A stretch of DNA of 64,000 bases, from the NCBI GenBank assembly GCA_948567375.1, contig OX419758.1, forward strand, positions 63,579,965 through 63,643,964. The letters run 5' to 3'. Under the pieces are notes generated by a model. The model did not search any database. It was given only the letters and a program-made list of their open reading frames with translations, and was not told the DNA's origin. This stretch comes from Lunularia cruciata (taxonomy: Eukaryota; Streptophyta; Marchantiopsida; Lunulariales; Lunulariaceae). Shown here in pieces: positions 1,771 to 60,347 of this stretch. Position numbers and translations under genes: made by a program. Position 1 is the first letter of the stretch. The number at the start of each line of letters is the position of its first letter.

Positions 1771-3480
1771 AAGAAGAAAGATCCTTTTGTGTCTTGAGGT
1801 AGACTAGAGGTTTGTGGTCTGTCTCTACCACAAATGCTTTCTCACCCAAATGGTGCTTCCAATGCTTGGTTGCAAAGACAATGGCCAACTCTTCTTGTTT
1901 AGTGGTGTGATAGTTGTTGTAAACGACCAAGACCGAGGAGAGAAATAGGAGAATAGAAACTCACATTGGGATACTTGAATGTAGGAAAACTCCATATGCC
2001 TAGCATGAACTTTGGCTTTGGTATTTATAGGTAGCAAATAAGGCCCTTGAGAAGCTTCTCAAGAAGTTTACTCAAGCCGCTTTCTTAGAGTGCAAGCCAA
2101 GTTAACTAGGAAGCTTCTCAAGAAGCTTCCTTCTAGAAGCCGCCTACTTGGCATGCAAACTAAGCTAGTTGGAAGCCTCTAGAAGCTTCTAGAAGCTACT
2201 TACTTGAGGTGCAAGCTAAGCTAGCCGGGAAACTTCTGAAGAAGCTTCCTAGATACTTCCAAAATATTCTAGGCTAATTTGTCTTATGTGCTACTTCATA
2301 AGCCTGACTAACTTCACTGTTAAACTCCATATTGTTACAGTTACATTTTTCCGGTAGCAACTAACAAGAGAAATACTCAATTGGGTGCCATCCATCTTTC
2401 TATTCTTGTTGTAGAACTCCTTTTGCTACACTTGATGCATTTGTACTATCTTGATTGGACATTTTGAATTATACCATTTCAAGGCTGGTGCATGTAGTAA
2501 TGCATCTTTCAACTCTTAAAAGGTCAATTCTTGAGCAATTCTTCATATCTACCTCTATATTCCTCATATCCCCTTGCCCAATAATGTGGTAAGGGGTTGT
2601 GCAATCTTGGAGAAATCCTTGAAAAATTGATGATAAAACCCCATCAATCCCAATAAACACTTGATTTGAATTTGATATTTTGGAGCACTCCATTTTTTAA
2701 TGACCTCTATTTTATCTGTTAACACTTGGATACCCTCTACACTTACTCTATGCCCTAAGTAGTCTACTTCAAATTTGCCAAACTTGCACTTTGAGATTTT
2801 GCCATACAATTGATTCTATCACATAATCTGGATGACTTCTTATAGATGTTGATTGTGCTCTATCAACATCCTACTGTAGTCTAAGATGTCATCAAGAAAT
2901 AAGACAATAGATTTATCCAATTATGGACAAAATATATCATTCATCAAACTCATGAAAGTGGTTAGAGCATTGGTGAGGCCAAATAGCATCACCAAGTACT
3001 CAAAGTGACTAAACCTTGTTCGAAAGGCTATTTTGTGTATGTCTTCTTCTGCAATCCTAATTTGGTTGTAATTGCTCAGCAAATCAAGTTTGGTGAAGTG
3101 CTTTGCCCCATTGAGTTGATCAAATAATTCATCCATGCAAGGTAATGGATATTTTTTCTTCACCATTTTTTGATTTAATCCCCAATAGTTGATGTACATG
3201 CGCATTGTTCTTGTCTTTCTTCTTCACAAACAATATAGGAGCCCCATATGGTGATATATTAGATTGGATAAACCCTTTCTACAACATATCCTCAGTTTTA
3301 GCCTTACACTCTTCCAACTCCTAAGGTGATAGTTGATATGAGGTCTTACAAGGAGGTGTTTTCCCATGATGTATCTCAATTTATGATCTACTCTTTTTTT
3401 TGGTAGTAAAAATACAAGTAATTCATCCAAAAAGATATCTTGGAACTCATTTGACCACATCTTTCAATTTCTTAGGAATT
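1640..3480 (-). pseudogene. Element A reverse transcriptase and RNase H (broken)
   Basis: RT occupies about 3480-2700. It shows a palm segment with [15 protein letters not shown] (about 3095-3050), [13 protein letters not shown] (about 3000-2955) and the catalytic FLDD of the YxDD box on the minus strand near 2905-2880. The RT thumb follows at 2809-2564. RNase H continues across the nested LTR-B and shows KHWKHHLGEKAFVVETDHKPL at about 1890-1820, including the conserved TDH. RT and RNase H copy the RNA template into double-stranded cDNA. Multiple stops and frameshifts interrupt it. Confidence 0.82.
1918..2339 (-). repeat. Solo LTR, family LTR-B, nested in element A RNase H
   Basis: On the plus strand it begins TGTAAACGACC and ends ATTGTTACA; reversed, it matches the LTRs of elements C and D over their whole length. 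Flanking 5-mers GTTGT and GTTAC match at three of five positions, so the target duplication is weak. It interrupts the RNase H reading of element A between about 1917 and 2340. It contains a perfect heat-shock-element pattern at 2181-2195 (aGAAgcTTCtaGAAg) and several GAAGCTTC palindromes. The TATA box reads in reverse near 2018-2026. Confidence 0.85.
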
Positions 3481-3831
3481 TTTCCATTGCGTTAGGCACT
3501 CTAGACTTCTCTTATTAAATCCATGAAACATCTATCTATCTTACCAATAAATGTGGTCTTTATGACATTTAGAGGCAACTCTTGCCTTTATGATCTTCCT
3601 TTAATCCCAAAGATCTTCCTTTGACTAGTTTTCACTACTTTCTTTCTCCAATCCACTATGGGATCCCAAAGTGGATTGGAGTGCTCTATCTCTGGCATAC
3701 CTAAGATCGCATTGTAATGAGCTAGTTGTATCACTCGCTACTTGATTGCTTCTTGATACTGTCCTATAATACTCCTAGAAAGGTAATACTCCTAGAGAGT
3801 ATAACCTTTCTATGTAATGACTCAATCCTCT

Positions 3832-4086
3832 CTATCTGACCATTAGAGGTAACTCTACTTTGTCCTTCTCTAGTTTCATCCCTAACCATGTTGCAACAAA
3901 GCAAGACAATAAATGCTTTGTTGCCCTTGGGTTTATCAATGCTCTCACCGGATTGCCTTCTAGCACTCCATTTACAGCAATTAATTGTGCATTTATCCTC
4001 CTCCTTTTCATACTTGTGCTCTTCCTCCTCCCACTTCTACTCTTCTTCACCAAGCCAATAAGGCTGTGAGGTACATTTAATGGCAA
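3832..4086 (-). pseudogene. Element A aspartic protease (broken)
   Basis: The peptide contains NGVLEGNPVRALINPRAT, where the family active site would read LIDPGAT or LIDSGAT. The catalytic Asp is changed to Asn and the Gly to Arg. It is followed by LLSCFVATWLGMKLEK, the usual continuation. Retropepsins cleave the gag-pol polyprotein. It lies between gag zinc-knuckle sequence (about 4200) and RT (below 3480), the normal Gypsy position. It is inactive as written. Confidence 0.7.
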
Positions 4087-4089
4087 TCT

Positions 4090-5148
4090 TCATTTTCCAA
4101 TGCAATTTCCATATCTTCCTCTTCAATGTCTCTCCATGTGGTTCAGAGGTTGCTTGTATGAAGGCCAAGAGCCTCTAAGATGGCGAGCATGATAACTGAT
4201 GGCTATGTGCACAATTTTGCCAAAATTGTAACATTGTTGTTGTTTTGATCAAGCCCCTTCTCCATGTAGGACTCCTTCTCTCCTTTCTTTGACACGTCCT
4301 CATTGTCCTTGGAAAGGTCTTGCTCTTATGTCTCAAAACCAAATGTTGCCCAATTCCATAGCATTGGTCCACCAAAATGGTGTGACTTGGCCTGATATTT
4401 TTTTATCAATGTTATTGCTTCACCTCCTCCAAGCACCCTTGTTATTCTTTGGGCACAAGCAATGGCTTCAAAAATAGTACAAAGATTTTGCACCATTACC
4501 TCTTGGTAAATCTGCTCTTTTAATCCTTTCTTGAAATTATCAAGAGCTTTGGCTAGACTCGTATTGGTTATTGCAACCTATAGATCTAGAAATATCTCCG
4601 CGTATTCTTGTATGTTGTTCTTCTACTTCAAACCCTAGAGTTTGGTTTGGGCCATTTGCACAAATCCACAAATGGGAAGTTCTTGGTTGTCCAAGTGACC
4701 TCTCTTCTTTCTACCAACAATGATTGTTCCCAAGCGTCATACCATGTGAGGGCCTTATTGATCAAGTACCCACATGCAAACACACCCATAGAATGATCAG
4801 TGATCTCCATCATGAACAATCAAAGGTATCGATAATTCTTGAAATCCAATTTTCCACTACTCCCATGGAACATTGTCCCTTGTAAGGCTTGATGTTGCAT
4901 GTCTTCTTCATTCGTAGTAACAATGTGGCTTGGTTGTTAATTGGAATCGGTGTCATCGGCATGCATAACTCTCTAGGTTCTTTGATTGTTGGTGTTGGTT
5001 GTTGAAACGGCTCTCCTTCTTGCATTGCTTGATCCTTCTTGATAAAACATACTTGATCTTGCAATTCCTCCATGTTCATCTTGATTTCTTGAAACTCATT
5101 TAACATCCCTTGCATTCCTTGTATCAACTCATACAATTGCATATCCAT
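4090..5148 (-). pseudogene. Element A gag (broken)
   Basis: The likely start is the Met at 5148 (MDMQLYELIQGMQGML), which aligns with the gag start of element E near 59757. An N-terminal coiled-coil-like segment runs to about 4990, then the capsid-like region with TWYDAWEQSLLVERREV at about 4740-4690. A decayed zinc knuckle lies at about 4250-4180, where the second Cys of CYNC reads Phe. Gag forms the virus-like particle and binds RNA. Several frameshifts are present. Confidence 0.75.
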
Positions 5149-5163
5149 TATTCCCGCACACAA

Positions 5164-5392
5164 TCAATGTTCACTTGCTACTTCCTACTACAATAGACGG
5201 TTAGAATGATCATTTTGGAGGGTGCAAAAAATATAGGGACTACCATTGGGACCTCAAAGGCCATCACTCATTGATAATATTCCTCACCAAAATTGCAGAC
5301 TACAAAATCCCTAAATATCACTTTTGGTCCAACAACATAATGGAGTTTTACTTGCATGTTGAAAGGATGAAGATTCAATACATTCAAATCCA
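5164..5392 (-). other. Element A 5' leader, part 1 (split by element B)
   Basis: Untranslated leader between gag and the primer-binding site. It aligns with 59765-59990 of element E (shared phrases such as 'gggactaccattgggacctcaaa'-type sequence in both). It ends at 5392 with ATCCA, the left copy of the element B target-site duplication, and resumes at 15321. Confidence 0.8.
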
Positions 5393-5843
5393 TGTCATGC
5401 CATTTGTAGTTCTGCATCTAGATGCTCGGACACTAGAGTTCCAATGATAGTAGTTAGAGTTATTTTAGTAGTTTCTCAGAGACTACTTTTTGACGGTTAG
5501 ATTTTGTGTTTGGGGTACTGACCTCACGGTGGGGCCCACCGTCACTTTGCACCATTTGCACCGTCAAGTGTGCCGTCAGCGGGACCGTTAGGATTTCAGG
5601 GCTAGCTCAAGTCCAGGGGTATAGTTTCAAAGGTGAGCTCCAGAGAGCTCACTTCTCTGATGTTGAGCCTTCGAGTTCCTGGCTATGGTGGCCAGAGGCC
5701 AGCGAGCGTCACCTGGATTCTCTATGCTTGAGTGGGTGTGGCTTGACTGTAATCAGTGCCCAGTTGTTGGCAGTTTATAGAGTGACAGGTCAAGTACTGA
5801 TCTGAGTTGAGTTGAGTTGAAAGTATTAAGCAATCTGATTACA
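5393..5843 (+). repeat. Element B 5' LTR (lacks first ~110 bp)
   Basis: It matches 14758-15215 from TGTCATGCC through AATCTGATTA, with a short (TTGAG)n length difference near 5805-5820. It lacks the segment at 14650-14753 that precedes this sequence in the downstream copy. It is followed by ACATCAGAGAAG, which resembles the core of an initiator-Met primer-binding site (ATCAGAG). Confidence 0.85.
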
Positions 5844-7217
5844 TCAGAGAAGTGAAGTCAGGGGGAAATTGGGTGCAGGAACTGTGAGTGTTAGTGGTAT
5901 CTCCAAGCTCGGTGGATCGTGGTAGCTCGATTCAAGTTCTGTGTGTTCCCTAGTGTGCAGAAGCTTGTTCAAGTGATGCAAATTTGGCAATTAGGCGGAC
6001 GGTGTGCGGAAGCACTGGCCAAATTTTGAGCAAAGAAGGAGCAATTTTTGAGCAGTGTTGTGATTTTGAGCTCAGGAGGTGAAGGCAGGACCAATTTGCT
6101 GCGAGTTGGGCTCAGAAAGTCAAATTGAAGGTGGAGTTGGGAAGCTCTTCTCATGAAATTGTGATTTGGAAAAACCTATTTTGTCAATTTGGCTCAAGTG
6201 GAAAGTTAACGGGGGATTTGGCGGACAGCCATCTTTAGGGTTTACGTCAGATTTTGGGCCAGATTTGGAGAAGTTTTGATGTTTGGCCAGATTTTGGGCC
6301 AGATTTGGAGAAGTTTTGTTGTTTGGCCAGATTTGGAGGAGTTTCACAGATTTGGAGAAGTTTTGCCAATTTTGGAGGAGGTTCGAAGTGGCAACAAGAA
6401 AGGCCTCATTTGGGCGTTTAGAGGCTTTGAGGCATAGGGTTGTGGGCTGTGGGCTATAAGAGGCTACAAAGGCCTAGAAGGGCCAAAAGGACCAGCAAGC
6501 CAGCTTGCTGGCGTGAGGCTAGCTAGTTTAGAGTAGATCTTGGTCATTGGTTGGCAAAATTTGCCTTTCCTGCTAGATTGTGCGCAATAGAGTTTGACCT
6601 CTAGATCTCTTGTTCCTAGACTGGTGCCCTAGCCAACTGGTCCACCCTCACTTGTTGTCCTAGTGACTGCACCATTGTTATCTATACACATGTAGCTTTG
6701 GCTAGGAGAGGCAGTTTGATCCTATTCTTGGTGATCCTAGTAGCTTAGGACTTAGATACGAACTACTTTTATGCCAAATCCCAAATGGTGGCAGAGTCAG
6801 TCCCGTGTTGTGTTATGAGATGGAGGGTTTTCATTTAGATTTCTTGTGATTGGATCCCCTCCATTCTCTACTTCTTGTTTGTGTACCACGCTTGTGTGAG
6901 GTGCCCTGACTTTTGAGCGTTGGTGCTCTGGTGTGCTCTCGGTGGTGAGGTTGGAGTGATGACCAGTTAGACTACCTTTGTTTCTCTCCGGTGAGGTAGG
7001 AAGTGATGACCTGCAGACCATGAGAGTGCGTGTTATAATGGCAGGTTACAGGTTGCCCTTTCCCCTAGTGTAGTTATCTTGGTTAGAGTTACATTAGTGG
7101 GTGGTGTTTAGTTGGTGTTGGCACGTGGTGTTGTTGGCACTTTGGTGGGGTACTTGCGGTTGCGACTTGTAGTTGCAGTTTGTGGTTTGGGTTTGCTGTT
7201 GTAGTTACTTGGTCACG
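5844..7217 (+). other. Element B 5' leader with 40-bp tandem repeats
   Basis: An unusually long leader of about 1.4 kb between LTR and gag. No coding domain is recognisable. At 6248-6367 a 40-bp unit (CAGATTTTGGGCCAGATTTG as its first half) occurs twice, followed by a shorter degenerate third copy. Purine-rich 'ggagaagttttg' phrases recur to about 6380. The likely gag start at 7218 lies in the context ACGATGG, with A at -3 and G at +4. Confidence 0.6.
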
Positions 7218-8646
7218 ATGGAGTTCTTTGGAGATTCCAGAGGAGTTAGCCCTGCAATACGCAATGGGTTTACTCGGAGTGGTGCTCGGTATCAGCCTGT
7301 ATCTCAAGTCCTAGTGAGGGAGGAGATTGACTCTAAGTTGGAGTTTGACACAGGAGCTGATTTAGTTGAGAGTGCACTTGGTGTGTCCGTACCGTTGTTG
7401 TGGGACATGGACAAGATTTATGGGGCCTCCAAAGGCCCTAGGCGTTACTTAGGTATAGTGGGTACCATTGAGTTGGATGACTTCATCCAGGAGTTTGATA
7501 GTTGGTGTGATCTACAGTAGATGCGGAACCCGACTTTGTTCACACCCTTCATGGCATGGAAGGGGTTGTTTCAGCACTTGGAGGGTCCGCCGATGGACGA
7601 CTACCATGAGTTCAGGAGAGCTCATTTGGAGGAGATTGAGTTATGGAGATAGTATTGGTCTCCACACTATGTCTCCATCACTTCAGGCTTGGTGGCTAGG
7701 AGTAGATCGGCTGTACCTACGAGTTCTAGCTTGAGTAGTGTGGGTGGAGCTAGTGGAGGTGCACTAGCTGGAGATAGTGCTACTACGAGTGGATGTACCA
7801 CTACAGGAGGTGGTGTGGTACCGGGGTTTAACCCCATGGTGGAGTTCTTCCTATGTTTGAGGCAGAACTACCAAGGAGTGCGGACTGACAAGCTGAGGAG
7901 CTTGCAGGAGTTCCAGCAGAAGGCTGGAGAGAGCCTACGCGAGGCATACACTCACATGAGGTGGCTGATCAGTTTCACTCAAGGAGTTACTGAGGCCCAG
8001 GAAGTCCAATTTTGGTATGGGATATTGGACATGGAGTTGCGACGTAGAGTTCGTGATGCTATGTTGTTGCAAGCTACTTCGCCCACTTTGGCAGTAGTCT
8101 TTGGTTTGGCTGAGCGTATTGAGCTCAACATGGTGGAGGAGAGAGTGGTGACATCTGGATTTGGTAGGGAGACCTCATCCACGGCTATGACTTCTTTTAG
8201 AGTGCAGTAGAGTGCACCACACTCAATTGGTTTTTGAGGACAAGGTGGACAGCCCAGATCCTATGGAGCGAGTGGAGGGCCTAGTGGAGTTAGACCCTTA
8301 CCCTCATTTTCGGGTCAGCAGCAGCCAGTGAGTGGTGGTGTTTCTTGTTGGACTTGTGGTGGACCTCACCATCAAAGAGAGTGTACTCAGGGCAGCGGAC
8401 TTGATACCTCTAGTGCATCACAGCCATCACAAAGGCAGTGTGAGCACTGCCACAGATTTGGTCACACTAGTGATCGGTGTTTTGACCTACACCCGGACTT
8501 ACGGAGTGGTAGGGCTGCTATGGCAGGTAGTAGAGGAGCTCCAATTCATGGAGGACAAGGTGGTAGAGGATCTACACCTAGTAGGGGTGCAATACCTGCC
8601 CTTACTTTTGACACAACTATGGCTACTCGGATTGAGCAATTGGAGT
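7218..8646 (+). pseudogene. Element B gag with two zinc knuckles (in-frame stops)
   Basis: Structural polyprotein for particle assembly and RNA packaging. I chose the Met at 7218 (MEFFGDSRG) over 7173 for its better start context. An N-terminal region runs to about 7690, then a Ser/Gly-rich stretch. The capsid (retrotransposon gag) domain at about 7830-8110 contains LREAYTHMRWLISF and VQFWYGILDMELRRRV. Two zinc knuckles follow: CWTCGGPHHQREC at about 8347-8385 (a variant with three residues between His and last Cys) and CEHCHRFGHTSDRC at about 8439-8480 (canonical CX2CX4HX4C). In-frame stops fall at 7518, 7650, 8208 and 8646 (all TAG) and 8235 (TGA). The frame is otherwise continuous into the protease. 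Confidence 0.9.
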
Positions 8647-8651
8647 AGAGA

Positions 8652-9839
8652 TTGGCTAGTATGGCTATTGCTCAGAGGAGATCAGATTCGGGTGTTGAGG
8701 CTTCCTCCTCATATGATGGTGATAGAGATGCTTTGGACTTCATGTGCGGAGCAGCACAGGTGGATGCATCTGCAGCAGTGACTAGGAGTGCAGTACGTGC
8801 TCCAGAGCCTAGAGGAGCATCAGTGGAGTTGGACCCACAGAGAGGAGAGGTTGGGAGACATGTCAGACTTCCCCAGTCTTTCATGCTATCTGAGGCATTG
8901 CAGATGATATCCATGGTTCCTAGGCGTCCTAGTGCAGGTGTGGTAAGTGGTGATGGAGTACATGATGGAATACCTACAAGTCAGCCACCTACTACTACAT
9001 GGACTAAGTCTAGCATGATGTTAGGGGCGGCTCAGCTGATTATGCGGCATCCTTTGTTTTCAGCCAGTGACATGTTTACATTGGGAGTTGACCCAGCCCC
9101 AGTATTCCAATTGGCTGCCACGTTGTGTGAGAGTAGGGATGGTGCAGTTCCTACTACTAAAGCAGAGGTGGTTGGTAGTGGAGCTGACTTGGGTGAGGAG
9201 CATGGGATCCGTTCAACAACCAGTGGTTTATGGCAGGCAACAACGGCTAGACTGGAGGAGTTGCCAGCTAGACCGGCATTTGAGAGAGTGCGGTTTACAC
9301 TTGGTGTTGTCCTATTGGATAACCAAAGGGGGATTTTTTGTTTGGTGGGACCTTCAGGGAAGGTCTATACACCACACAGAGTCTTGTTAGACTCTGGTGC
9401 GCGGTCCCTTATGTTGGGGAAGGCTGTAGTTGTCGGTCTGGAGTTACGGAAGATCAATGTGGAGAGGTGTCCATTTCAGATCCAGACATCTCTAGGTGGT
9501 GGTTCGACACAGTACATCACACGTGGAGAGCTTGTTGTCCAGGTTCAGCCTGGTCATCCGACTGATAGCTCGGTGGTGAGAGCTTAGGCTATTGTGACGA
9601 TAGTTGAGTCATATGATGTGCTAGTTGGAGGAGCAGTGTTATACTCTATGGGTTTTAGCATTGACTATTGGGAGGAGACAGCCTCTTATAGACCTGGTTG
9701 GCATTCTGGTGAGGGACGGGTATGTCGCCTACTAGTACGCTTCAGTAGTGGTAGTCTTGGCTCACTACAGTCCAAGACCATGGCAGCATCAGTTTTAGCT
9801 TTCAGCGGTGCAGTTACTTGGCCTGGTAACTTGTTGTAG
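8652..9839 (+). pseudogene. Element B linker and aspartic protease (in-frame stops)
   Basis: It continues the gag frame. Residues encoded at 8652-9330 form a linker I cannot assign. The retropepsin domain starts near 9380 with VLLDSGARSLMLGKAV, whose DSG catalytic triad is intact (about 9387-9395). The second half, after the TAG at 9585, shows YDVLVGGAVLYSMGF near 9606-9650, in the position of the hydrophobic-Gly motif that closes the retropepsin fold. A further TAG at 9837 separates it from the methyltransferase. The protease would cut the polyprotein, probably releasing the methyltransferase. Confidence 0.85.
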
Positions 9840-11042
9840 GGGAACGCCCATGCAGAGGATACTCTAGTACCAGAGGAGATCACTTGGCTTTGGAGTACGA
9901 GTGGGATTGTTCCATCCACCTTGGATGTTCCATTGTGGAGTTCAGAGGAGGCATTGCAACAGCATGCAGATCAGTTGATGCAGCAGGCTTGGAGTGGAGC
10001 CTTCGTACCATCAGGAGATGAGTGTGAGGATGAGCTTTCGGAGGCGATTTCTTTGACACCTCTGGATACCACACTCATTGCTTGGCAGTATCCAGTAGAG
10101 GGGATATGCCTATTGGAGTTGTTTGGTGGGATAAGCACCGGACTAGCTATGGTGTTACAGGCGGGTATCCGAGTACAGAGGTACTTGTATGTAGAGAGAG
10201 ATGAGACTGCTAGGCGAGTCTCTCTATATCATGTGGCACACTTGGCTTATCGGTATCCGGAGTTATTACCGATGTCAGCAGTCAGAGGTTACCAGAAGGC
10301 CCTACCAAGAGACATTTCCTTACTTGGGGCGCATGACCTAGAGAGACATGGGCCTATTCACTTGGTGATTTCTGGATGGCCATGTTGGGGACATACACGT
10401 GCGGGCCGTGGTTTGGGTCTTTAGGATCCTCGTTCTGGTGTGTTTTGGGAGATGTTACGGATACTACGACATCTCCAAGTTCATCAGTTTGTTTCTCCAG
10501 CTTACCTTTTGGAGAACGTGCCATTGATGGGTGATTCTTGCACTAGAGTGGTGGCGAGTACATATCAGGTCCATTCATGGATGGGACCTACTATATTGTT
10601 AGATGTAGCCAAAGTGGGATCACGGGCTCATCGTCTTTGTCTTTGGTGGACAAACTTCTTACCCAGAGAGGTTCTACAATGTAGTTATGATGGGATTCAG
10701 CGACTAGACCATATTCTTGTTGATGATATCTTGGATGTTGGGCATCAGTCTAAGACAGTGGTAGTGGCTAATAGGTCACCTATGGTAGTGGTGAACCTAG
10801 TTGGACAGCCTAGAGCTGCATTTCCCACACTCATGAGTTTCCCAAGCTCTCATGCTTTTCGAGAGGGAGGACCTAGACTTGTTTGGGACTCGTAGTTACA
10901 GCAGTTGGTGGAGCCCAACGCTGATGAGAGAGAGCGGGCAATGGGTTTTTGCACCGATATTACCGCTGTTCCATTCGTGTCAGAGGCATCCAGGCATCAG
11001 GTGTTAGGTCAGGCTATGGACCTAAATTGTTTGACCTAGATT
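9840..11042 (+). pseudogene. Element B cytosine-5 DNA methyltransferase domain (in-frame stops)
   Basis: It would transfer a methyl group from S-adenosylmethionine to carbon 5 of cytosine in DNA. Visible motifs in order: I, LLELFGGISTGL (10110-10145, AdoMet binding); II, RYLYVERDETAR (about 10180-10215); IV, ISGWPCWGHTRAGRG (about 10368-10412) with the catalytic Cys codon TGT at 10383-10385; VI, AYLLENVPLMGD (ENV at 10512-10520); VIII, GSRAHRLCLWWTNF (about 10617-10660); IX, PNADERERAMGF (about 10917-10950); X, RHQVLGQAMDLNCLT (about 10990-11036). The motif order is the standard unpermuted one. The phrasing around I, VI and VIII looks more like the DNMT3/DRM side than DNMT1, but that is impression only. 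It sits in frame between protease and RT. TAG stops at 10422, 10893 and 11037 make this copy dead; position 11037 would be Trp by family expectation. A Trp follows the PC dipeptide where Gln or Asn is common. Confidence 0.9.
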
Positions 11043-12450
11043 GTGAGCCTTGGCTTGGCAGAGCAGCGTAGGATGCGCTTGATAGGCATCACCACTCGGA
11101 CACTTGTGAGCCCTGTGGCTATCGAGATGATTCAGGCACATGTTGGGGGCGATGGACCGAGTGGACATGGTATTCTTGGGACACATCCAGTAGCTACTAG
11201 GGAGAGTGGTCTACTTGGAGTCCATCTAGGTGAACGTGGGCTACTTGGATTACACCCTTGGTCCACATGGGATGCAGCTAGAGGACGTGTGGAGCTTGCA
11301 GCTAGAGTGGAGGGAGTTTTTCACACAAAGGTTGGGACCTCTAGTGGTCAGGAGCATGACACTACTGCTCCCAAGGGCCCAGTGTAGCAGCCAATCAGTA
11401 TGTCTTCCACTCCTACTACAATTATAGAGGATACTTGGGAGCCAGATCTTGGACCCAAGCTTACTGGAGAGGAAAGACGGAGGGTTTGGAGGTTCTTGAG
11501 GAGTCACATGAGTTGTTTTGCCTTCAGTATGAAGGATTTGGGTGCTTTGAAGGGACCTGGTATACGGATTGAGCTGACTAGCAACACACCAATTTTCAGA
11601 CGTCCTTATCAATATAGTGATATGGAAAGGACATTGATTCAGAGCCGGAGTAGTGACCTTTTTGAGGCTGGTTTGGTGGAGATTTCACATGGAGAGTATG
11701 CATGCATCAGCAACAATGATGCCAGCCAAGAAGGATATGCATGGCAACTATATAAATAGGCGGATGTGTGGAGATTACCATCCTATCAACCGACAGACGA
11801 GGGCTGATCGGTATGCCATGCCTACACCGAAGGAGATTTTTGATGCGATTGGGCATGCAAAGGTCTTTAGTACTTTGGATCTTCGAGCGGGATATCATCA
11901 GTTGCCGATCAGAGAGGAGGATAAGTCCAAGATAGCATTTTGGGCTATTGATCCTCACGGCAAGGATGTGTTATATTAGTGGAGGTTCTTACCATTTGCA
12001 TTGAATAATGCTCCTGCTGAGTTCCAGAGGGTCATGGATAGGATCCTAGCTGGATTGGATTTTGCTTGGTGCTATATTGATGACATTTTGGTTTATAGCA
12101 CTATTGTGGAGGAGCATGAGAGACAGTTGTTGGAGGTGTTTGAGAAGTTGAGATCTCATGGACTCAAATTACATCCTAGGAAGTGTAGGTTCTTCCACGA
12201 GCAGGTTGAGTATTTGGGTCACACTATCTACCCCGGAGGACTTGGTGTCTAGCAGACCAAGGTGGAGGCTATTGCACGTATTCCTCAGCCTACGGATGTG
12301 AGCAAAGTGCAAGCATTCCTTGGGTTGGCAAACTTCTATCGCCGCTATGTTAGAGGATTTAGTGCCATTGCCAAGGCCCTGACCAAGCTTACATAAGAGT
12401 GGTGTTGGGGAGACGAGCAGGAGAGAGCTTTTGTAGAGCTCAAGGAGAGG
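11043..12450 (+). pseudogene. Element B linker and reverse transcriptase (frameshift and stops)
   Basis: About 115 residues after the methyltransferase are an unassigned linker ending in TAG at 11385. RT begins near 11400. Frame one covers SHMSCFAFSMKDLGALKGPG and FRRPYQYSDMER; a duplicated TGCA near 11698-11705 then shifts to the next frame, which continues with MPAKKDMHGNY, RRMCGDYHPINRQT, FSTLDLRAGYHQLPI, FLPFALNNAPAEFQRVMD and the catalytic CYIDDILVYS (YIDD codons 12073-12084). The thumb follows with YLGHTIYPGGLGV and FLGLANFYRRYVRGF. Stops fall at 11977 and 12250 (TAG) and 12394 (TAA). All catalytic Asp residues I can place are intact. Confidence 0.92.
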
Positions 12451-14091
12451 TTGACATCTGCTCCTATTTTGAGGAGACCGATCAGGGGACGACCATTTCA
12501 GGTTCACACTGATTGGAGTATGTTGGGGCTTGGAGCGGTGCTCACCCAGCATGATGATGAGGAGAAGGAGTTTGTGGTGGCCTATGCTAGTCGCTCCAAC
12601 AATTCAGCGGAGATGAAGTATAGTTCATATGAGGGAGAGTGCTTGGTAGCAGTTTGGGTAGTAGAACATTTCCAATGTTACCTATTTGGTAACCCCTTCA
12701 CTCTCATCATTGATCATCAGCCGCTGAAGTGGTTGATGGAGTCTGACAAGCTTTCAAGGAAGCTTGCACGATGGGCTCTGATTTTACAAGAGTATGATTT
12801 CACGGTTGTTCATAGACCTAGAGTAGTGAACCGTGATGCAGATGGGTTGAGTAGAAACCCATGTCCTAGCCAGCAGGATCAGACCGGAGCACATTGGCAT
12901 GCTGAGACAGATGAGGAGATGGTGCCAGGTTGGCATGCATCGGCCTTTCTATGTATATTTGCAGAGGCTTTGGTGGTATCTCTCTCAACGCATACAGGAG
13001 GAGTTATTGAGGTCACAAATCTAGAGAGTGAAGATATTGGTACAATTCAGCAAGACATTCATGATGATGTCTTAGTGATGGACTATCTTTGCACTAGTGT
13101 TGTGGGTAGCACAATTGGGGCCAAGGAGAGAGACCATGCTCTTCAGCGAGCCAAACGGTTCAGATTGGAGGGTAGACACCTTTTGCATGTATGGGAGGAT
13201 GGTAGAGTGCAAGTAGTACCACTTCCATCACAGAGACCACAGTTGGTCCGTCATGCTCATGAGGAGCTAGGACATTTTGGAGTAAAGCGTACATATAGCT
13301 TACTCCAGAGTCATTATTGGTGGCGTGGTATGCAGACCAAGGTATGGCAATTTGTTGCCAGATGTGTGGTTTGTGACCAAGTTAGAGCATCATTCAATGC
13401 TCCTATGCCACAGTTACATCCATTACCTATTATGGGATTAGGTTACCGTTGGAGTTTGGACTTCGCCGGACCTTTACCGCTGACCATGAAACATCATCGG
13501 TACATTTTGGTGATGGTGGAGCACTTCTCCAAGTGGATTGAGTTGGTGGCACTTCTTGACAAGTCTAGTGAAGGGACAGCTTACTCCTTCCTGGATCGAG
13601 TTCTTAGTCATTTTGGTGCACTAGTTGAGGTTTTGACTGATCAGGGTACAGAGTTCTTGGGGGAGTTTCAAGTCTTGTGTGACAAGGCTTTGATTGATCA
13701 TTGTACTACATCACGAGATCACCCTGAGGTAGATGGCTTAGTAGAGAGAGTGGTTCAGACGGTGAAGAGAGGATTGCAAAAGTATGGTTTGCAGAGAGGC
13801 CACTTGGGAGATTGGGATCTCAAGTTACCTTGGTTGGCCATGGGCTATCAGTTCAGCAGGCAAGCCTCCTTAGCATCCTTCTCTCCATACTTTCTACTCT
13901 ATGGACAAGATCCAGATTTACCTGTAGCCATTCATCGAGATGCTACTATAGTTTTGGACTTGGATGACCCCAATGTATGGATGAGCGCATGTTCTCAGCG
14001 GGCAGAGATCTTTCAGAGAGTGATGCCGATGGCCTTTGAGAACTTGGCGATTGCTCAGCATAGAGATACTTTACGTTATGCTACCATTTGA
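12451..14091 (+). CDS. Element B RNase H and integrase (546-codon open segment)
   Basis: The longest open segment in the window. RNase H: FQVHTDWSMLGLGAVL (first Asp), SSYEGECLVAVW (Glu), LIIDHQPLKWLM (Asp) and NRDADGLSRNP (last Asp). Integrase: zinc-binding region with HAHEELGHFGVKRTYSLL and ARCVVCDQVR (HHCC type, about 13250-13380); core with WSLDFAGPLPL (first Asp, about 13455), VLTDQGTEFLGEF (second Asp, about 13635) and HPEVDGLVERVVQTVKRGL (Glu, about 13720-13760). The DDE triad is intact. The TGA at 14089 interrupts the C-terminal domain, which continues with FHPGDYVYLQQ near 14122. As written it is a fragment of the pol polyprotein, not a free gene. Confidence 0.93.
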   Translation: MTSAPILRRPIRGRPFQVHTDWSMLGLGAVLTQHDDEEKEFVVAYASRSNNSAEMKYSSYEGECLVAVWVVEHFQCYLFGNPFTLIIDHQPLKWLMESDKLSRKLARWALILQEYDFTVVHRPRVVNRDADGLSRNPCPSQQDQTGAHWHAETDEEMVPGWHASAFLCIFAEALVVSLSTHTGGVIEVTNLESEDIGTIQQDIHDDVLVMDYLCTSVVGSTIGAKERDHALQRAKRFRLEGRHLLHVWEDGRVQVVPLPSQRPQLVRHAHEELGHFGVKRTYSLLQSHYWWRGMQTKVWQFVARCVVCDQVRASFNAPMPQLHPLPIMGLGYRWSLDFAGPLPLTMKHHRYILVMVEHFSKWIELVALLDKSSEGTAYSFLDRVLSHFGALVEVLTDQGTEFLGEFQVLCDKALIDHCTTSRDHPEVDGLVERVVQTVKRGLQKYGLQRGHLGDWDLKLPWLAMGYQFSRQASLASFSPYFLLYGQDPDLPVAIHRDATIVLDLDDPNVWMSACSQRAEIFQRVMPMAFENLAIAQHRDTLRYATI

Positions 14092-14481
14092 GGAGGAGGT
14101 TATAGACCCTTGATCCATTGATTTCATCCAGGCGACTATGTATATCTACAGCAGACAGCACCGACAACACTTGATGTTTCTACAGGCCGCACTATCTTGA
14201 GAGTGCGTGAGGTTTTGCCATCTGGTGTCCTTGTGTTAGAAGGACGTGATGGGTTGTTTGGAAGGATCATGTGCGCAATTGTGCGCCATGCCACCTCCCA
14301 AACATTGATGGTACTATGGACCCAAGCTTGGCACTTGTACGTGCAGGCTTGAGGTGTATGTTATGTGGCTGCTACTATGTTAGTGTGTGATAGCTATTCG
14401 AGAGGATGGCATATGGCATGTATGACTCCTCCCCTCACGGTGGTTCCTCAGGGACAGTGGTTATGTCCTAGATGTACTTGA
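14092..14481 (+). pseudogene. Element B integrase C-terminus and PHD finger (frameshifts)
   Basis: After the TGA at 14089 the frame runs on as FHPGDYVYLQQTAP and ILRVREVLPSGVLVLEGRDG (with one more TGA at 14119), then shifts near 14255 to VWKDHVRNCAPCHLPNIDG and DPSLALVRAGLRCMLCG. The CMLC pair (14355-14366) is the first Cys pair of a PHD finger. After another shift near 14375 come MLVCD, then RGWHMACMTPPLTVVPQ, then GQWLCPRCT and TGA at 14479-14481. This is the C4HC3 signature of a PHD finger with the fourth Cys changed to Tyr (TGT to TAT). PHD fingers bind histone H3 tails, so the likely role was chromatin targeting. The spacing between the second and third Cys looks short, suggesting a small deletion. 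The domain ends the polyprotein. Confidence 0.82.
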
Positions 14482-14649
14482 CCTATAGCTAGTTCATTCT
14501 TTATATGATATAGATTGCAGACAAGCGACTAACAATGGGGCTCCATAGCACCCGGCCTCCTGATCTTTGCCCATTAGAGGGTATACCATATACTTAGAGT
14601 AGATGGCTATCTAGAATTAGAGGGACCTAACCGCCAGCTAGGGGTGCAA
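14482..14649 (+). other. Element B 3' untranslated region
   Basis: About 170 bp between the PHD stop and the start of the LTR-related sequence. No reading frame of note. The last bases, AGCTAGGGGTGCAAT (14635-14649), are the only purine-rich tract near the LTR and are my best candidate for the polypurine tract. Confidence 0.5.
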
Positions 14650-15215
14650 TTGTGGCACTTTAGAGTCTATGTATGACTTATGTGTGAGTTGTGTTTCTAT
14701 AGTGTATGATGTTGACAGCAATGTATGTTGTGTAGCAATGTATATACGCACGATAGCTGTCACACCATTTGTAGTTCCGCATCTAGATGCTCGGACACTG
14801 GAGTTCCAGTGATAGTAGTTATAGTTATTCTAGTAGTTTCTCAGAGACTACTTTCCAACGATTAGATTTTGTGTTCTAGGTACCGACTTCACGGTGGGGC
14901 CCACCATCACTTTGCACCGTTTGCACCGTCGAGTGTGCCATCAGGGGGACTGTTAGGGTTTTAGGGATAGCTCAAGTCCAGGGGTATAGTTTCGAGGGTG
15001 AGCTCCAGAGAGCTCACTTCTTTGATGTTGAGCCTTCGAGTTCCTGGCTATGGTGGACAGAGGCCGGCGAGTGTACCTGGATTCTCTATGCTTGAGTGGG
15101 TGTGGCTTGACTGTAATCAGTGCCCAATTGTTGGCAGTTTATAGAGTGACAGATCAAGTACTGATCTGAGTTGAGTTGAGTTGAGTTGAGTTGAAAGTGT
15201 TAAGCAATCTGATTA
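14650..15215 (+). repeat. Element B 3' LTR (X segment 14650-14753 plus Y segment 14758-15215)
   Basis: The Y segment (TGTCACACC to GATTA) matches the 5' LTR at 5393-5841. The X segment (TTGTGGCACTTTAGAG to CGCACGA) is absent in front of the 5' LTR but present again at 15216-15319. The purine-rich candidate tract lies upstream of X, not upstream of Y, which favours X+Y as the complete LTR (about 566 bp). A (TTGAG)n run near 15165-15190 differs in length from the 5' copy. Confidence 0.75.
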
Positions 15216-15320
15216 TTGTGGCACTTTAGAGTCTATGTATGACTTATGTGTGAGTTGTGCTTCTATAGTGTATGATGTTGACAGCAATGTATGTTGTGTA
15301 GTGATGTATATACGCACGAC
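15216..15320 (+). repeat. Second copy of LTR segment X at the right end of element B
   Basis: It matches 14650-14753 over 104 bp without gaps and with about two or three mismatches. It directly follows GATTA of the LTR and directly precedes ATCCA, the right target duplication. It therefore lies inside the inserted unit. Confidence 0.85.
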
Positions 15321-15691
15321 ATCCATAACATCATAATAGAATGTAGATTGTCAAATCCCACTCTTTGTCATATACCACCATAGTAGAATCATCGAGTTTG
15401 GTGAATTCATCACTCTGTCCATGAATTCTGCTCCAAAGTCATAAACTTATGATACTCTCATTCGCTCACACTAGATGTATATAATCTTGATGTGGAATGG
15501 ATTCAAAAGTGGGAAGCTAGATGCTAGAAATTGTCCTCTCGGTGCATCCATCCCATCCACTCTCCAAAGCCCTTCCCAAGTCTAACAATTGCACTATGTT
15601 CTCCACCTCAAATTACTTAATTTCACTAGCTCATACTCTTCCAAAAGGGGCGATCCACTCTCTTGGATTAAAACACTCACTCTGATACTGT
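15321..15691 (-). other. Element A 5' leader, part 2, and primer-binding site
   Basis: It resumes element A after element B and aligns with 59990-60360 of element E. It ends with ACTCTGATACTG (15679-15690); reversed, this is CAGTATCAGAGT, a decayed initiator-Met tRNA primer-binding site directly beside the 5' LTR. Confidence 0.8.
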
Positions 15692-16283
15692 TTTAATATT
15701 CCAAGGACAAGAGAACTTTTCAAGAGAGAAAACATAGATTTCACACTCAATCATCTGATGCCCCAAAGGAGCACATTCTCTTTATTATATAACCACAAGG
15801 ATCCTCTCAAAGGAAGCTCCACCCTTGGATCAGATACATGGATTGGTGACCTGTTAGTAAGCTCCATCCTTGGATTAATTTTTTGGATGGGTGGTGACAT
15901 GTCAGTCCTTGTCTTGTCTAGTTGGTCAAATGGGTGGTTTTACTAAAGGGAATCCTTAGGGGATCTTCTTGTATGAAGCTCAAAATCGCATGGATAAGGT
16001 ACCATTCAAAAGCTCTCAAACAAGACAAATCATGGGGAGGAGAAGACAAGCCTCTTCTTTTAAGGAAGGAGAGTATTTGCATTTTTATGCCTAATTCATC
16101 CATTTAGTCCTCCAAAAATGACTTTAAAGTTTTTAGGCTAGTTTCAGCTTCTGCCCTCTTAGTAGAAGTGCTCTTTTGGAGATACCTATATCTTATCTAC
16201 TTAGTCCCTCATGTATAACATCCTTACATATGTTACCAAACCAAATTTCATCTCTAGATCATCTTCTAGTTATTGGTATTACA
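15692..16283 (-). repeat. Element A 5' LTR (LTR-A family)
   Basis: Reverse-oriented LTR-A. On the plus strand it runs from TTTAATATTCCAAGG to GGTATTACA. At about 592 bp it is shorter than the usual 740 bp, so internal deletions are present. The reversed TATA box reads near 15778-15790. The opposite LTR of element A lies beyond the left window edge, so no target duplication can be tested. Confidence 0.85.
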
Positions 16284-32271: not shown

Positions 32272-33156
32272 CTACAAGACATTCATCTCAATTTTTATGG
32301 TGGACATTGATGAAGGCACACAACATATCCTCCAAGGTACAATTTGCACGTTTGGTTTATCTATCAGTTTGAGGATGATAGGCCATGGATAAAGCAAGCT
32401 TGGTGCCAAGTATTTGGAAGAGTGCTTGCCAAAACTTCTTGGTGAATCGGAGATGAGTACACTTGGCATCCCATGATGCTTGAAGACATTGTCAAAGTAG
32501 ATTTCTGCTAAGGTTGGAGCATCCACTATATCAATGGTTGGTGCCAAGTGGATTTGCTTACTAAGCTTATCCACAAACACCACGATTGTTGTGTGTCCTT
32601 GCTTTGTCAAGGGTAAGGATGTGATGAGATCCAAGCTCACATGTTCTCATTGAGTGGATGGAATGGGGAGTGGTTGAAGGAGTCCACTTGGCTTCTAGTT
32701 GCTGGCCTTTTTATGTTGGCAGCTCTCACACAATCAGACAAACTCTTGAACATCTCGTGTCATGTTGGGCCACAACCATTGGCATAGGAGGGTACCCAAG
32801 GTCTTGTCCATACCCATGTGCCCAACTATTGGTAAATCATGTGCTTCTTGAAGGTGTACAAGTCGGAGATCACCTTTGGCTGGAACATAGATCCGGACCT
32901 CATGGAATAGAAGGCCTTCCTTGAAGGAGAAGCTGTTGTATTCCTTTTTGCATATTGTAAGACAACCATGTACCATTTGGAAGAAGAGATCTTGTTGTAG
33001 AGCTGACCAAAACTCATTTTGGACCTTGGAGTCAATTGATACGGTCATAATTGTTGTTATGATGAAAGGGAGAGACTTCAAATCAAGTTGCCATGATAGA
33101 GCATCAAGGATGACATGGAACCAAACTGGTTTGTACTCAAGTTTGATGTCAAACAA
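32272..33156 (-). pseudogene. Element D integrase N-terminus and core (broken)
   Basis: The zinc-binding region at about 32830-32734 shows HLQEAHDLPIVGHMGMDKTL. The core shows DLITSLPLTKQGHTTIVVF then VDKLSKQIHLAPT (first Asp intact), and FKHHGMPSVLISDS, where the second catalytic Asp region SDRDPRF is damaged. The Glu region is frame-shifted. The 33156-32840 portion is the RNase H to integrase linker. Confidence 0.85.
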
Positions 33157-33159
33157 TTT

Positions 33160-34440
33160 GAGTTGTTTTCCTCATCTATGATGTCAACTCTTCATGTTTT
33201 CCAAGTGTAAGGTCTACAACAATAGTTTGTGATTAGTTTGCATGATCACTTGTTTCCCAAGAGATAATACCTCCATACTTTGGTGACAAATACTATTGCA
33301 AGCTGTTATTGGTCTCAAGCAAAGTAATTTCTTTCAGCCATATTTAGTTAGTGAGACACAAAGGAAATGGGATGTAGTCCATATAGGAATTCTTGTTGCA
33401 ACACGGTTCCAATTGTAAAGTTAGAAGCATCAAAATCAACCACACAGGGTAGTTGAGGATCATATAGTTGAGGATGAGTCTTGACGACACCATATATTTT
33501 TACTTCTGGAATGCTTCTTTGTGCTTGGTGGTCCACTGAAAGCTCAAGTTCTTCCCCGAGAGGTCAATCAATGGTGCAGCCACATGATTATAATAATGAA
33601 TGAACCATCGGAAAAAACTGGCCAATCCATTAGATGCTTGTACTTCTATAACGCCCTTTAGAGTAGGCCAATCAATAATGGCCTTGATTTTCTCCTCTTC
33701 CATCTTGATCCCCTCTAATGAGATCTTGTGACCCAAAAAGGTAACTTCCTTTTGCCAAAAGGCACACTTTGACTTCTTATAATAAAATTTCCATTATTGT
33801 TGTTGTCTTAGGACTTCTTGCACGTGATTCATGTGTTTTGCCTCTATCTTGCTATAGATTAAGATATCATCCAAGAACACCACTATGTATTGATCCAATA
33901 GTCCATCTACACTCAATGCATCTGATCTATGAAGACCGTTGGAGCATTAGTGAGCTTAGAAGGTAGAACTCTCTACTCAAAATGCCCATACCTTGTGCAA
34001 AAGGCAATCTTTTGCACATCTTCCCTATCAATGAGGATTTTCCAATAGCAACTACAAAGATCCAATTTGGAAAAGTATTGTGCTCCACTCAATTGATCAA
34101 GCAAGTCATCAATCCGAGGCAAGGGATATGCATTCTTGCTTATTGAGCCCACAATAATTAATACAGAACAAAGTCTTATATCCTTCTTTGGAACAAATAA
34201 TACTAGTGCTCTCCAAGGAGAGGTACTATGTCATATAAAGTCCTTCTCTAAAAAATCCATAAGTGTTTTTTGCAAATCCTCCAACTCCTTTGGTGAGAGC
34301 AAATATATTGGTCTACTCACTACAATACTCCCTAGCAATAACTCAATCTTGAAGACCATACCACAATCGAAGGGTAATCCCTTTGGCAAACCATCCAAAA
34401 CCACGTTCACAAACTCTTGAATTATTTGGTCAACATTGCT
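33160..34440 (-). pseudogene. Element D reverse transcriptase and RNase H (broken)
   Basis: RT fingers and palm span about 34430-33850. The catalytic VVFLDDILIYS lies near 33895-33860 on the minus strand. The thumb at 33736-33500 shows MGHKISLEGIKMEEEKIKAI and FFRWFIHYYNHVAAPLIDL. RNase H at 33480-33180 shows YDPQLPCVVDFDASNFTIG (first Asp). Several stops. RT lies directly downstream of the tandem repeat block. Confidence 0.87.
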
Positions 34441-34499
34441 TGATGAGGCTCTTAATCCTCAGATTATCCTTGTACAATCAACTTGATCCACACTACAAA

Positions 34500-34690
34500 A
34501 ATAGGCTTATCTTCCTCCAAAGCTTGCTCTATGGGTGCTTCACTAACAAACTTCCCATGTAGAGACTCATCTTTCTTCAAAGCTTGCTCCATGGCTGCTT
34601 TCTTGGTAAACTTCCCATCTTGGGACTCATCCCCTTCAAGGATTTCTCTATGGTTACCTTCTTGACAAACTTCCTATCTTGGGGCTGACT
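34500..34690 (-). repeat. 20-residue coding tandem repeats in element D pol (three copies)
   Basis: On the minus strand three units of about 60 bp encode variants of KFVSEATxEQALKxDESLHG, for example KKAAMEQALKKDESLHGK and FVSEAPIEQALEEDK. The oldest unit reads KKVTIEKSLKG and has a 1-nt loss. The block lies between protease and RT. The same repeat occurs in element C (51715-51890). Confidence 0.85.
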
Positions 34691-34765
34691 ATTTTTAGGT
34701 GTCTTACTCAAATGTGCCAGATAACCTAATCAGAAATTACTATCTTGGTATTGTTCTTGAATTTC

Positions 34766-35045
34766 TCATTGAATCCAATCAAATTGAACCTTATGAAATT
34801 CAAGCCAAGGTAGTCCTAGAATGACATTGTAGTGTAGAGGTGCCACTACAAACCCCATACACTCCAAATACTCCTTCCCAATCTTAAAGGTAACAAGATA
34901 CAATATAAAAAATATAGAACCCTTTCCACCATCTGCCATTGTCAATCTACTTCTAATTATTGGCTTGATAGTAATACCCAATTCCTTTGCTACTTGCATA
35001 AACATGCAATTCTCTCAACTTCCAAAATCAACCAAAATCCTACAA
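34766..35045 (-). pseudogene. Element D aspartic protease (broken)
   Basis: It reads CRILVDFGS at about 35040-35015 (the active site DSG changed to DFG), a stop, then MFMQVAKELGITIKPI and, at the end, PLHYNVILGLPWLEFHKVQFD. The last segment contains the Ile-Leu-Gly motif that closes the retropepsin fold. Element C has the corresponding VDSRS and PLHYDFILSFTWLEHHKVQFD. Confidence 0.83.
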
Positions 35046-35049
35046 CCCC

Positions 35050-49723: not shown

Positions 49724-50429
49724 ATGGGATGGATGGAATTTATGGACCACCAAATCCATTTCCAGCAAACCATTAGGATTTGTGTGTCCAAGTACTACCC
49801 AAGCATTGTGTTTCATACAATTTATCATCTCACTCTTTGGGTATGATTTTTTGCATGCAATCACCTTATTTGAGGAACCCTTTATACATTTGGTTGTAAT
49901 ATTGGAGAATGGTGGACATGTTGTATCTATGGGTTAATAAGTTAGATAAATTGGGAGTAGTGGGATAGAGTAGTAGCCATGGTGGCAATACCCAATGTTA
50001 GCATTGATATATAACAACAAATTGATCACCTTACTTGATTGTTGGATGAACTATGAGCTGGTATATCTCTCACTCAAGATGACCTCTGATAGCTATTATG
50101 GTAGCGCATCATGGACTAAGAGGGCAAAGAACCCCAAATCCATCATACTTTTCCAAGGCTAACACTCCAAGACTCAAGACATTGCTCACTAGAGAACTCA
50201 ATGAGAGAGAGATAGTTGCAAATGAAAGGATGATGAAGTAGTGGTACTCATCTTTTCCACTTGCTCTAAAGTAAGATCCCCTTTATCTTAGCTATGACTA
50301 ACTTTAGCTAATTGTGACTAATTTAAAACCATCCTTTATCTCTATATAAATAATATCTCTCAAGTACTAGTAATAACAAACTAAATATCATAATACTATA
50401 TACATACACAAATGGGTGTTACAGAACAA

Positions 50430-51300: not shown

Positions 51301-51339
51301 GGATGGAAGGCTTGACTTATGCAAGTTTGCTTCACTTGC

Positions 51340-51665
51340 AAGGTATGATATTTGATTGGAGTTGTAGGATTTTAGGTTGATTCTAGAAGTTTGGAGAATT
51401 ACATGTCCATGTAATAAGCAAATGAATTACATGTTATTATCAAGCTAGTAATTGGAAGCAAATTAATAATCTGCATCCCATACCTCACATCCAATTACAT
51501 TGAGGTTAGGAAGGAGTAGTTGGAGAATATGAGGTTGATAGTGACACCTCTACATTATGATTTCATCTTGAGTTTTACTTGGCTTGAACATCATAAGGTT
51601 CAATTTGATTTGAATGGACAACAAATTAAAGTACAACACTAAGGTAGGAATTTCTAATTAGGTTG
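51340..51665 (+). pseudogene. Element C aspartic protease (broken)
   Basis: VDSRSLE at about 51380-51400 is the active site with Gly changed to Arg. The domain end is IVTPLHYDFILSFTWLEHHK near 51535-51605. It matches element D domain by domain. Confidence 0.78.
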
Positions 51666-59757: not shown

Positions 59758-60347
59758 GGCTTCTACAACACTCAATTGCTATTGTCTACTTCAATAGTTT
59801 GTTAATATGATCACTTTGGAAGGTTCACAAACTATTGGGACTACCATTGGGACCTCAAAAGCTATCACTTGTTGATAATACTCCTCACCAAAATTTCTAA
59901 CCACAAAATCTCTAAACATCAATTTCTATCTCATTACATAACAAATTTCTACTTGAGTGTTGAAAGGGAGAGGATTTCAGACATTCACATCTATAACATT
60001 ACAATAGAATGTGGATTGTCAAATCCTACTCTCTATCATATACTACCATAGGTAAAATCATCAGGTTTGGTAAGTTCATCACTCTATCTGTGAATTTTGC
60101 TCCAAAGTGATAAACTAGCGATACTCTCATTTGCTCATGTTGAATGTACATAACCTTGATGTGGAATGGGTTCAAGAATGGAAAGCTAGGTGCAAGAAAT
60201 TTTCCTCTTGGTGCATCCATCCCATCTGCTCTCTAAAGCCCTTCCCAAGTCTATCAATTACTATATGTTTTCTATCTCAAATTACTCAGTTTTAGTAGTT
60301 TGTGCTCTTCCAAGAGGGGTGATCCACTCTCTTGGACTAAAACAATT
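59758..60347 (-). other. Element E 5' leader
   Basis: Untranslated leader, uninterrupted. It aligns with element A parts 5164-5392 and 15321-15678 and shows that element B inserted between them without visible deletion. Confidence 0.75.

Follow-up and report, generated by a model that had tools for sequence, protein, structure and literature searches.

A DNMT3-class cytosine methyltransferase as a predicted fixed domain of a high-copy Ty3/Gypsy retrotransposon family in the bryophyte Lunularia cruciata

We analysed a 64,000-nucleotide stretch of the Lunularia cruciata genome (assembly GCA_948567375.1, contig OX419758.1, positions 63,579,965 to 63,643,964 of the forward strand), hereafter the window. 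It holds a 9.93-kb Ty3/Gypsy retrotransposon (positions 5393-15321) in which a cytosine-5 (C5) DNA methyltransferase domain lies between the protease and the reverse transcriptase (RT). The coding part of the element comprises two open reading frames (ORFs) with the following features:

7218..11384, + strand: ORF1 region with gag, protease and methyltransferase, broken by stops in this copy (translation, copy comparison)
8346..8480, + strand: two gag CCHC zinc knuckles, CX2CX4HX4C (translation, by eye)
9320..9680, + strand: aspartic protease region, DSGA recognised by eye; Pfam score 13.4 bits, below the cut-off of 24.3
9843..11042, + strand: DNMT3-class C5-methyltransferase domain with three stops (PF00145, PDB match, protein relatives, model of relative P0002)
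10374..10385, + strand: motif IV, GWPC, which holds the catalytic cysteine (motif search)
11385..11393, + strand: stop TAG-CAG-CCA shared by ORF1 and ORF2, in a tobamovirus-type leaky context (31 copies)
11388..14481, + strand: ORF2 with RT, RNase H, integrase and PHD finger; RT part interrupted here by a frameshift and by stops
14368..14475, + strand: PHD finger at the integrase end (PF00628)

With TAG read as X, the translation of 9843-11036 matched PF00145 far above chance (24 bits, E 3e-5, cut-off 22), and its best PDB matches were DNMT3A chains, with E values down to 7.7e-8. The DNMT2-type tRNA methyltransferase 1g55 was a far weaker match (E 0.56), and the inter-stop pieces of the domain, searched alone, gave no Pfam methyltransferase match at E<=1. 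The AlphaFold model of the relative P0002 closely matches DNMT3A. These searches bear out the initial annotation, which had read a C5-methyltransferase inside a Ty3/Gypsy element from the bare sequence and had named the profile search as a check.

Six of the seven motifs that it had described in order in one frame were also located, starting at 10113 (I), 10374 (IV, GWPC), 10509 (VI, ENV), 10626 (VIII), 10935 (IX) and 11004 (X). Their order is canonical, unlike the rearranged order of DRM enzymes. Among 30 copies, most of them decayed, motif I was kept in 30, IV in 29, VI in 25, VIII in 26, IX in 25 and X in 27, and a three-frame search found WPC.G in 29 and WPCQG in 24. Residues P139, C140 and E183 were invariant across an 18-row alignment that includes distant relatives. 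The copy in the window is dead: its domain carries three stops, the last at the very end. A methyltransferase free of stops and frameshifts was present in 7 of the 30 copies retaining 90% of the domain, and the new methyltransferase stops were mostly C>T/G>A changes (18/20). By its nearest sequence and fold, the stretch 9843-11042 is thus classed as a decayed DNMT3-class C5-methyltransferase.

The domain recurs throughout the genome. A 29-base motif-I pattern, allowing up to 3 mismatches, occurred at 3,317 places in 566 Mb and an RT pattern at 4,615, with no match to either in the controls; the two counts do not form an exact ratio, because the motif-I pattern was derived from the window and, among the places listed, matched exactly at only 9 and with one base different at the rest. 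Full-length copies at all 3,317 places would amount to ~33 Mb, an upper guess. The aligned set consisted of the window and 30 further copies, drawn from 40 scored among 3,791 candidate places (9 of the 40 were left out). At least 90% of the methyltransferase was kept in 30 of these 31 copies, which had been chosen by that domain. Eight copies were picked by RT and inspected over 201 bases at the expected place: five carried the methyltransferase, 82-94% identical to that of the window, and a clean layout lacking it was not found in this small sample. Neither of the outcomes that the initial annotation had named as refuting it, a missing profile match or family copies without the block, was met with.

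The copies bear a strong decay signature, with C-to-T change per site of 0.067 at CG, 0.068 at CTG and 0.051 at CAG, against 0.0075 at CHH. This pattern is the imprint of CG and CHG methylation, so the copies do not escape host silencing. Selection was assessed by comparing variants present in at least three copies with singletons, leaving two-copy variants unused and excluding C>T/G>A changes. The ratio of nonsynonymous to synonymous changes in the methyltransferase was 5:12 for shared variants and 41:22 for singletons (p 0.012). Shared variants elsewhere pointed in the same direction (gag 1:9, protease 4:11, RT 1:8, RNase H-integrase 0:6), and the excluded C>T class showed a weaker shift (shared 29:24, singletons 62:25). 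These ratios argue for purifying selection on the methyltransferase domain, perhaps somewhat weaker than that on RT and integrase.

Gag-protease, methyltransferase and RT share one frame in the family, as initially described, but the frame is not continuous: a conserved TAG (11385-11387) splits methyltransferase from RT, and the window copy additionally has a frameshift in RT. TAG-CAR-YYA stands at this point in all 31 copies aligned there, as TAGCAGCCA in 28 and in forms that still fit CAR-YYA in the other three; an earlier fixed-flank pattern search had found it in 29 copies. By sequence, UAG-CAR-YYA is the tobamovirus-type readthrough context, with the motif as given in PMC2754532, where CAR YYA is described as essential for readthrough in tobacco mosaic virus (TMV) and the TMV signal reached 32% in a plant test. 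The longest stop-free frame among 123 PF00145 loci was 1428 aa, in two loci. Protease and methyltransferase, but no RT, are found in a Marchantia protein (P0165, 1278 aa) and in 13 metagenome proteins of 1330-1451 aa, all of which stop a short way past the methyltransferase; precomputed annotation assigns PF13650 (protease) to the relatives P0180, P0190, P0193 and P0198. The frame length and these proteins therefore define ORF1 as gag-protease-methyltransferase. The predicted place of the methyltransferase is thus on the Gag side, at the end of ORF1 and before a conserved leaky-type stop, and it should consequently be made at Gag levels, above those of RT and integrase. Its position between protease and RT stands as first described, but does not simply imply release from Pol by cleavage, as had been deduced from it.

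The remaining domains place the element in Ty3/Gypsy by their order, RT-RNase H-integrase, and by an RT nearest to Ty3 (1.7e-36, with the RT taken from another copy). RNase H, the integrase zinc finger and the integrase core were matched inside the window. A PHD finger closes the integrase (PF00628, 33 bits, E 6e-8, cut-off 24); its nearest solved structures are CHD4, PHF12, KMT2C/D, KDM5 and similar fingers. Several of these fingers read histone H3 with unmodified K4. No chromodomain was found within 13900-14484 at E<=0.1, where the PHD finger lies instead, and we rejected membership among the chromoviruses on this ground. Membership in DIRS was likewise rejected, given an rve integrase, no tyrosine recombinase match in the scanned pieces and 4-bp duplications in 8/8 copies.

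The termini are split, in the order A-coding-B-A-B, so that full direct long terminal repeats (LTRs) at both ends, as expected of Ty3/Gypsy, are replaced by repeat A alone on the left and B-A-B on the right:

5389..5392, no strand: left target-site duplication TCCA (sequence)
5393..5841, + strand: terminal repeat A1, beginning TGTCA, with no B after it (repeat comparison)
5842..5866, + strand: site directly after A1, in the place of a primer binding site; ACATCAGAGAAGTGAAGT, identical in 9/9 left ends found among 11 searched
14640..14648, + strand: polypurine-type tract before B1; AGGGGGGCG in 7/11 copies, close variants in 4
14649..14753, + strand: repeat B1 (repeat comparison)
14754..14757, + strand: short B1-A2 spacer; GC or GT after ...CGACA in 8/11 copies
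14758..15214, + strand: repeat A2 (repeat comparison)
15215..15321, + strand: repeat B2, ending CGCACGACA (repeat comparison)
15322..15325, no strand: right target-site duplication TCCA (sequence)
59960..60020, + strand: empty site in a paralogue of the host repeat (sequence comparison)

We compared the window with 10 further copies retrieved in pieces. The right end B1-A2-B2 was present in nine of these ten, the tenth stopping inside A2, and A1 lay on the left in eight of the ten within the retrieved piece; the 11 left pieces all lacked a match to repeat B. The B/A junction carried its two-base spacer in 8 of 11 copies. Since the purine tract directly precedes B1, the canonical LTR would be B-A, and the integrated form A-coding-B-A-B is a circular shift of B-A-coding-B-A. 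The sequence after A1 is only partly like the initiator-tRNA complement, and no primer was assigned.

Elements end in TGTCA...CGACA and are flanked by perfect 4-bp duplications in 8/8 copies with both ends, the window included. The ATCCA duplications first proposed, 5 bp long, were rejected: TCCA lies at 5389-5392 and 15322-15325, and the extra A is the element's own last base. The element lies inside another repeat, and the empty site preserved at 59960-60020, in a paralogue of that host repeat, shows the duplication to be TCCA; it follows from two repeat pairs within the window, 2354-5393 with 56979-59994 and 15319-16241 with 59987-60908.

A third host-repeat pair joins 32716-35974 to 50424-53690. 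Other decayed Gypsy RTs lie at 2477-3202 (-), 33446-33892 (-), 52339-53312 (+) and 57078-57980 (-), mostly 25-36% identical to the methyltransferase family; in the same search, methyltransferase-bearing proteins matched the window methyltransferase only within ~10098-11144. Positions 16000-64000 are repeat-rich and contain no ORF of at least 150 aa from ATG, GTG or TTG. No tRNA was found in a search of the whole window.

Protein searches returned at least 100 relatives at E<=0.001, the top two being 61% and 68% identical to the query across 100% and 89% of its length. Named relatives among the matches listed came from Calypogeia fissa, Sphagnum, Marchantia polymorpha and Riccia sorocarpa, and the remainder were mainly metagenome proteins. 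The metagenome proteins P0203 and P0210 have the order RT-RNase H-methyltransferase-integrase-PHD, and the methyltransferase also follows RNase H in P0146 (Chromochloris zofingiensis, RNase H-methyltransferase-integrase) and P0214 (Monoraphidium neglectum, RT-RNase H-methyltransferase). The stretch between methyltransferase and integrase in P0146 looked G-patch-like by eye. Two JGI metagenome entries, P0055 and P0060, with 58 and 170 member sequences, look like a subfamily, with relatives carrying motif IV PCQGMSMAGNQ, and their host may lie outside the bryophytes. Sphagnum and Marchantia element domains (P0009, P0012, P0164) are labelled DNA (cytosine-5-)-methyltransferase in UniRef, and host gene counts may be inflated as a result.

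Trees were built from rows chosen by hand from 215 proteins and genome loci. In the 52-row full-domain tree, the protease-methyltransferase-RT elements formed one group of 26 rows (100/97), a set of Lunularia, Marchantia, Calypogeia, Sphagnum and four metagenome rows made up a group of 14 (100/100), and the RNase H-methyltransferase-integrase set formed one of 13 rows (100/99). DNMT3A sat on a long branch whose position this tree did not settle. A shorter tree, spanning motifs I-VI and including DNMT3-like and DRM fragments of the host, set all 47 retroelement-type rows apart from these fragments (100/98), some of the rows being without known element context, and recovered the 26-row group at 81/87; DNMT3A joined the host DNMT3-like fragment outside them (90/90). 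An RT tree of 12 rows, built without a methyltransferase-less sister family, agreed with the split by domain position, and the integrase tree was weakly resolved. Together, the groupings suggest that the domain was captured once and later changed its place in the polyprotein; they fall short of proving a single capture, because methyltransferase-less sisters and Klebsormidium sequences were absent from the trees.

Three loci of the Lunularia genome represent host enzymes: L057 (C1) and L059 (C6) are fragments with the rearranged, DRM-type motif order and L058 (C7) is a DNMT3-like exon. All three fell outside the 47-row clade, and on this sequence evidence the host has DNMT3-like and DRM-type methyltransferases of its own. 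A viral origin of the domain was not supported: P0034 had no viral contigs, eight viral loci reached 27-42% identity to the 18-row alignment, and the four of them placed in trees all stood apart from the retroelement rows.

A close counterpart of the Lunularia family is KnitGypsy-Dnmt3, described from the charophyte Klebsormidium nitens by de Mendoza et al. (2018, PMC5890265), which combines a DNMT3-class domain under purifying selection with Gypsy domains and DIRS-like A-coding-B-A-B repeats. The likeness lies in domain content, repeat layout and selection, with no tree joining the two, and no protein named as K. nitens was among the relatives listed in our protein searches. In that paper, the domain is placed in the Pol ORF and taken to have been acquired independently in the lineage of K. 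nitens, where copies are less numerous than in Symbiodinium; the main text contains neither the word "PHD" nor the word "readthrough". In contrast, the Lunularia family has a bryophyte host, ~3,300 domain places, a Gag-side ORF ending in TAG-CAR-YYA and a PHD finger. The SymbioDIRS-Dnmt3 elements of dinoflagellates (PMC5890265) likewise join a DNMT3-class domain to split repeats but use a tyrosine recombinase, whereas the Lunularia family has a DDE integrase and 4-bp duplications. Both precedents, the Klebsormidium and the dinoflagellate one, are real, as the initial annotation had it. The chlorophyte Gypsy set (P0146, P0214 and metagenome P0203, P0210) shares a related methyltransferase and RT, and integrase-PHD in P0203 and P0210, but carries the methyltransferase after RNase H rather than between protease and RT. 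Host DNMT3/DRM genes belong to the same enzyme class.

Methylase retrotransposons in green algae are mentioned in general terms in PMC6338049, and PMC12344493 mentions retroelement DNMT3s in streptophytes and dinoflagellates, as Copia and DIRS. According to PMC6338049, from 2019, land plants lack such transposons, which is explained as a loss where DNA viruses are of little weight. The accessible text of the plant LTR classification PMC6317226 mentions neither methyltransferase nor PHD. Our literature search, which left most subscription papers and all bioRxiv preprints outside its coverage, found no land-plant case, in keeping with the initial statement that no well-described one was known.

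We consider, with moderate confidence, that the window holds a defunct member of a once active, high-copy Ty3/Gypsy family in which the DNMT3-class domain is permanent and selected, and in which an enzyme made at Gag level would pre-methylate the cDNA before a PHD-steered integration. Translation would yield mainly Gag-protease-methyltransferase, and leaky reading of TAG-CAR-YYA would extend a smaller amount by RT-RNase H-integrase-PHD. Packaged in Gag-like amounts, the methyltransferase would be freed by the protease inside the particle and most likely methylate the element's new double-stranded cDNA, probably at CG, by analogy with dinoflagellate DIRS enzymes that methylate CG in yeast and for which cDNA was proposed as substrate (PMC5890265). 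To the presumed benefit of the element, the methylated DNA would enter the nucleus resembling silent host DNA, and the PHD finger may steer the integrase to chromatin with unmodified H3K4. A cDNA of the form B-A-coding-B-A could be joined end to end and cut at the B/A junction, giving A-coding-B-A-B with 4-bp duplications.

Several observations weigh against this account. Methyltransferase and RT lie in one stop-free frame in four relatives, of which P0150 and P0200 fuse the two and P0202 and P0212 extend from the methyltransferase as far as the end of the integrase; several gene models from Marchantia and Sphagnum (P0058, P0063, P0168, P0169, P0172, P0175, P0177, P0201), possibly predicted across the stop, fuse the methyltransferase with RT, RNase H or integrase. 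Readthrough is predicted from sequence context. The identity of A1 and A2 in the window copy is low, at 92.4%. Three of the eight RT-picked copies had neither methyltransferase nor any element sequence at the expected place, and for the latter reason seem to be truncated or disrupted elements, not ones that lack a methyltransferase by design. Host methylation alone would fit the CG depletion and CHG decay, and the selection test involved few shared sites, leaving out shared C>T variants (29:24) that include seven stops and are probably recurrent decay. Furthermore, the KnitGypsy-Dnmt3 enzyme did not methylate DNA de novo in yeast, which its authors called inconclusive because human DNMT3B was inactive too, and in the alga KnitGypsy copies are methylated at CHH and CHG, as are other silent transposons (PMC5890265).

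Other explanations concern the substrate of the enzyme. It is unlikely, in our estimate, that it acts in trans on host, competitor or invading DNA-virus DNA, shifting silencing or protecting the cell. Thousands of copies would suit such a role, the host's own DNMT3-like and DRM-type genes offer a system to interfere with, and a defence against DNA viruses by transposon-borne methylases has been speculated upon (PMC6338049); yet the strong CG and CHG decay marks the copies as silenced rather than spared, and the same paper expected loss in land plants, where DNA viruses are minor, while Lunularia retains the elements. We give even less credence to an action on RNA, in which the enzyme would meet genomic RNA and primer before any cDNA and could aid packaging or priming. 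This would suit its Gag-side position, and RNA methylation was raised for a dinoflagellate LINE enzyme inactive on DNA (PMC5890265), but the nearest class by sequence and fold is DNMT3, far ahead of the DNMT2-type 1g55.

It is also improbable that the domain has no catalytic role, whether carried along passively or serving Gag as a structural part, as the inactivity of the K. nitens enzyme in yeast (inconclusive to its authors) might suggest, since catalytic motifs are kept in most decayed copies and in distant relatives and shared variation is constrained. An equally poor prospect is that the TAG before RT arose by ordinary decay in a family making a single long polyprotein. New stops are indeed mostly C>T/G>A changes, and P0150, P0200, P0202 and P0212 lack a stop there; however, TAG stands in 31/31 copies, always followed by CAR-YYA despite single-base differences, no stop-free frame among the 123 loci exceeds ORF1, and ORF1-length proteins end after the methyltransferase in Marchantia (P0165) and several metagenome groups. 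Insertion of the block into a single element, as a one-off captured gene, can be practically dismissed, given the 3,317 places, its retention in nearly all copies (although chosen by this domain) and the same order in relatives, with no point found in its support.

Within the favoured account, cDNA pre-methylation by a Gag-level enzyme, the family would be a land-plant offshoot of an old Gypsy group of the green lineage, probably methylating its own cDNA. A bolder version, which we offer only tentatively, posits one DNMT3 capture before the algal/land-plant split, or spread between the two, then the move within the polyprotein, Gag-level pre-methylation of cDNA and a PHD finger that picks H3K4-unmodified chromatin: a self-silencing retrotransposon installing its own heterochromatin.

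Since hosts silence transposons by DNA methylation, a methyltransferase long kept in a successful transposon is a paradox. Judged from its sequences, the domain is a fixed part of this Ty3/Gypsy family of a plant. The sole Gypsy case we found described in detail was from one alga (PMC5890265), and, for bryophyte-type genomes, the family contradicts the claim of loss in land plants as it is put in PMC6338049. With some 3,300 places of the domain in a single genome, gene annotation calls for caution. The Marchantia relatives open model-plant tests of whether the DNA is methylated before integration and whether self-methylation aids spread through less harm. DNMT domains in their thousands, if expressed, could also influence the methylome of the host.
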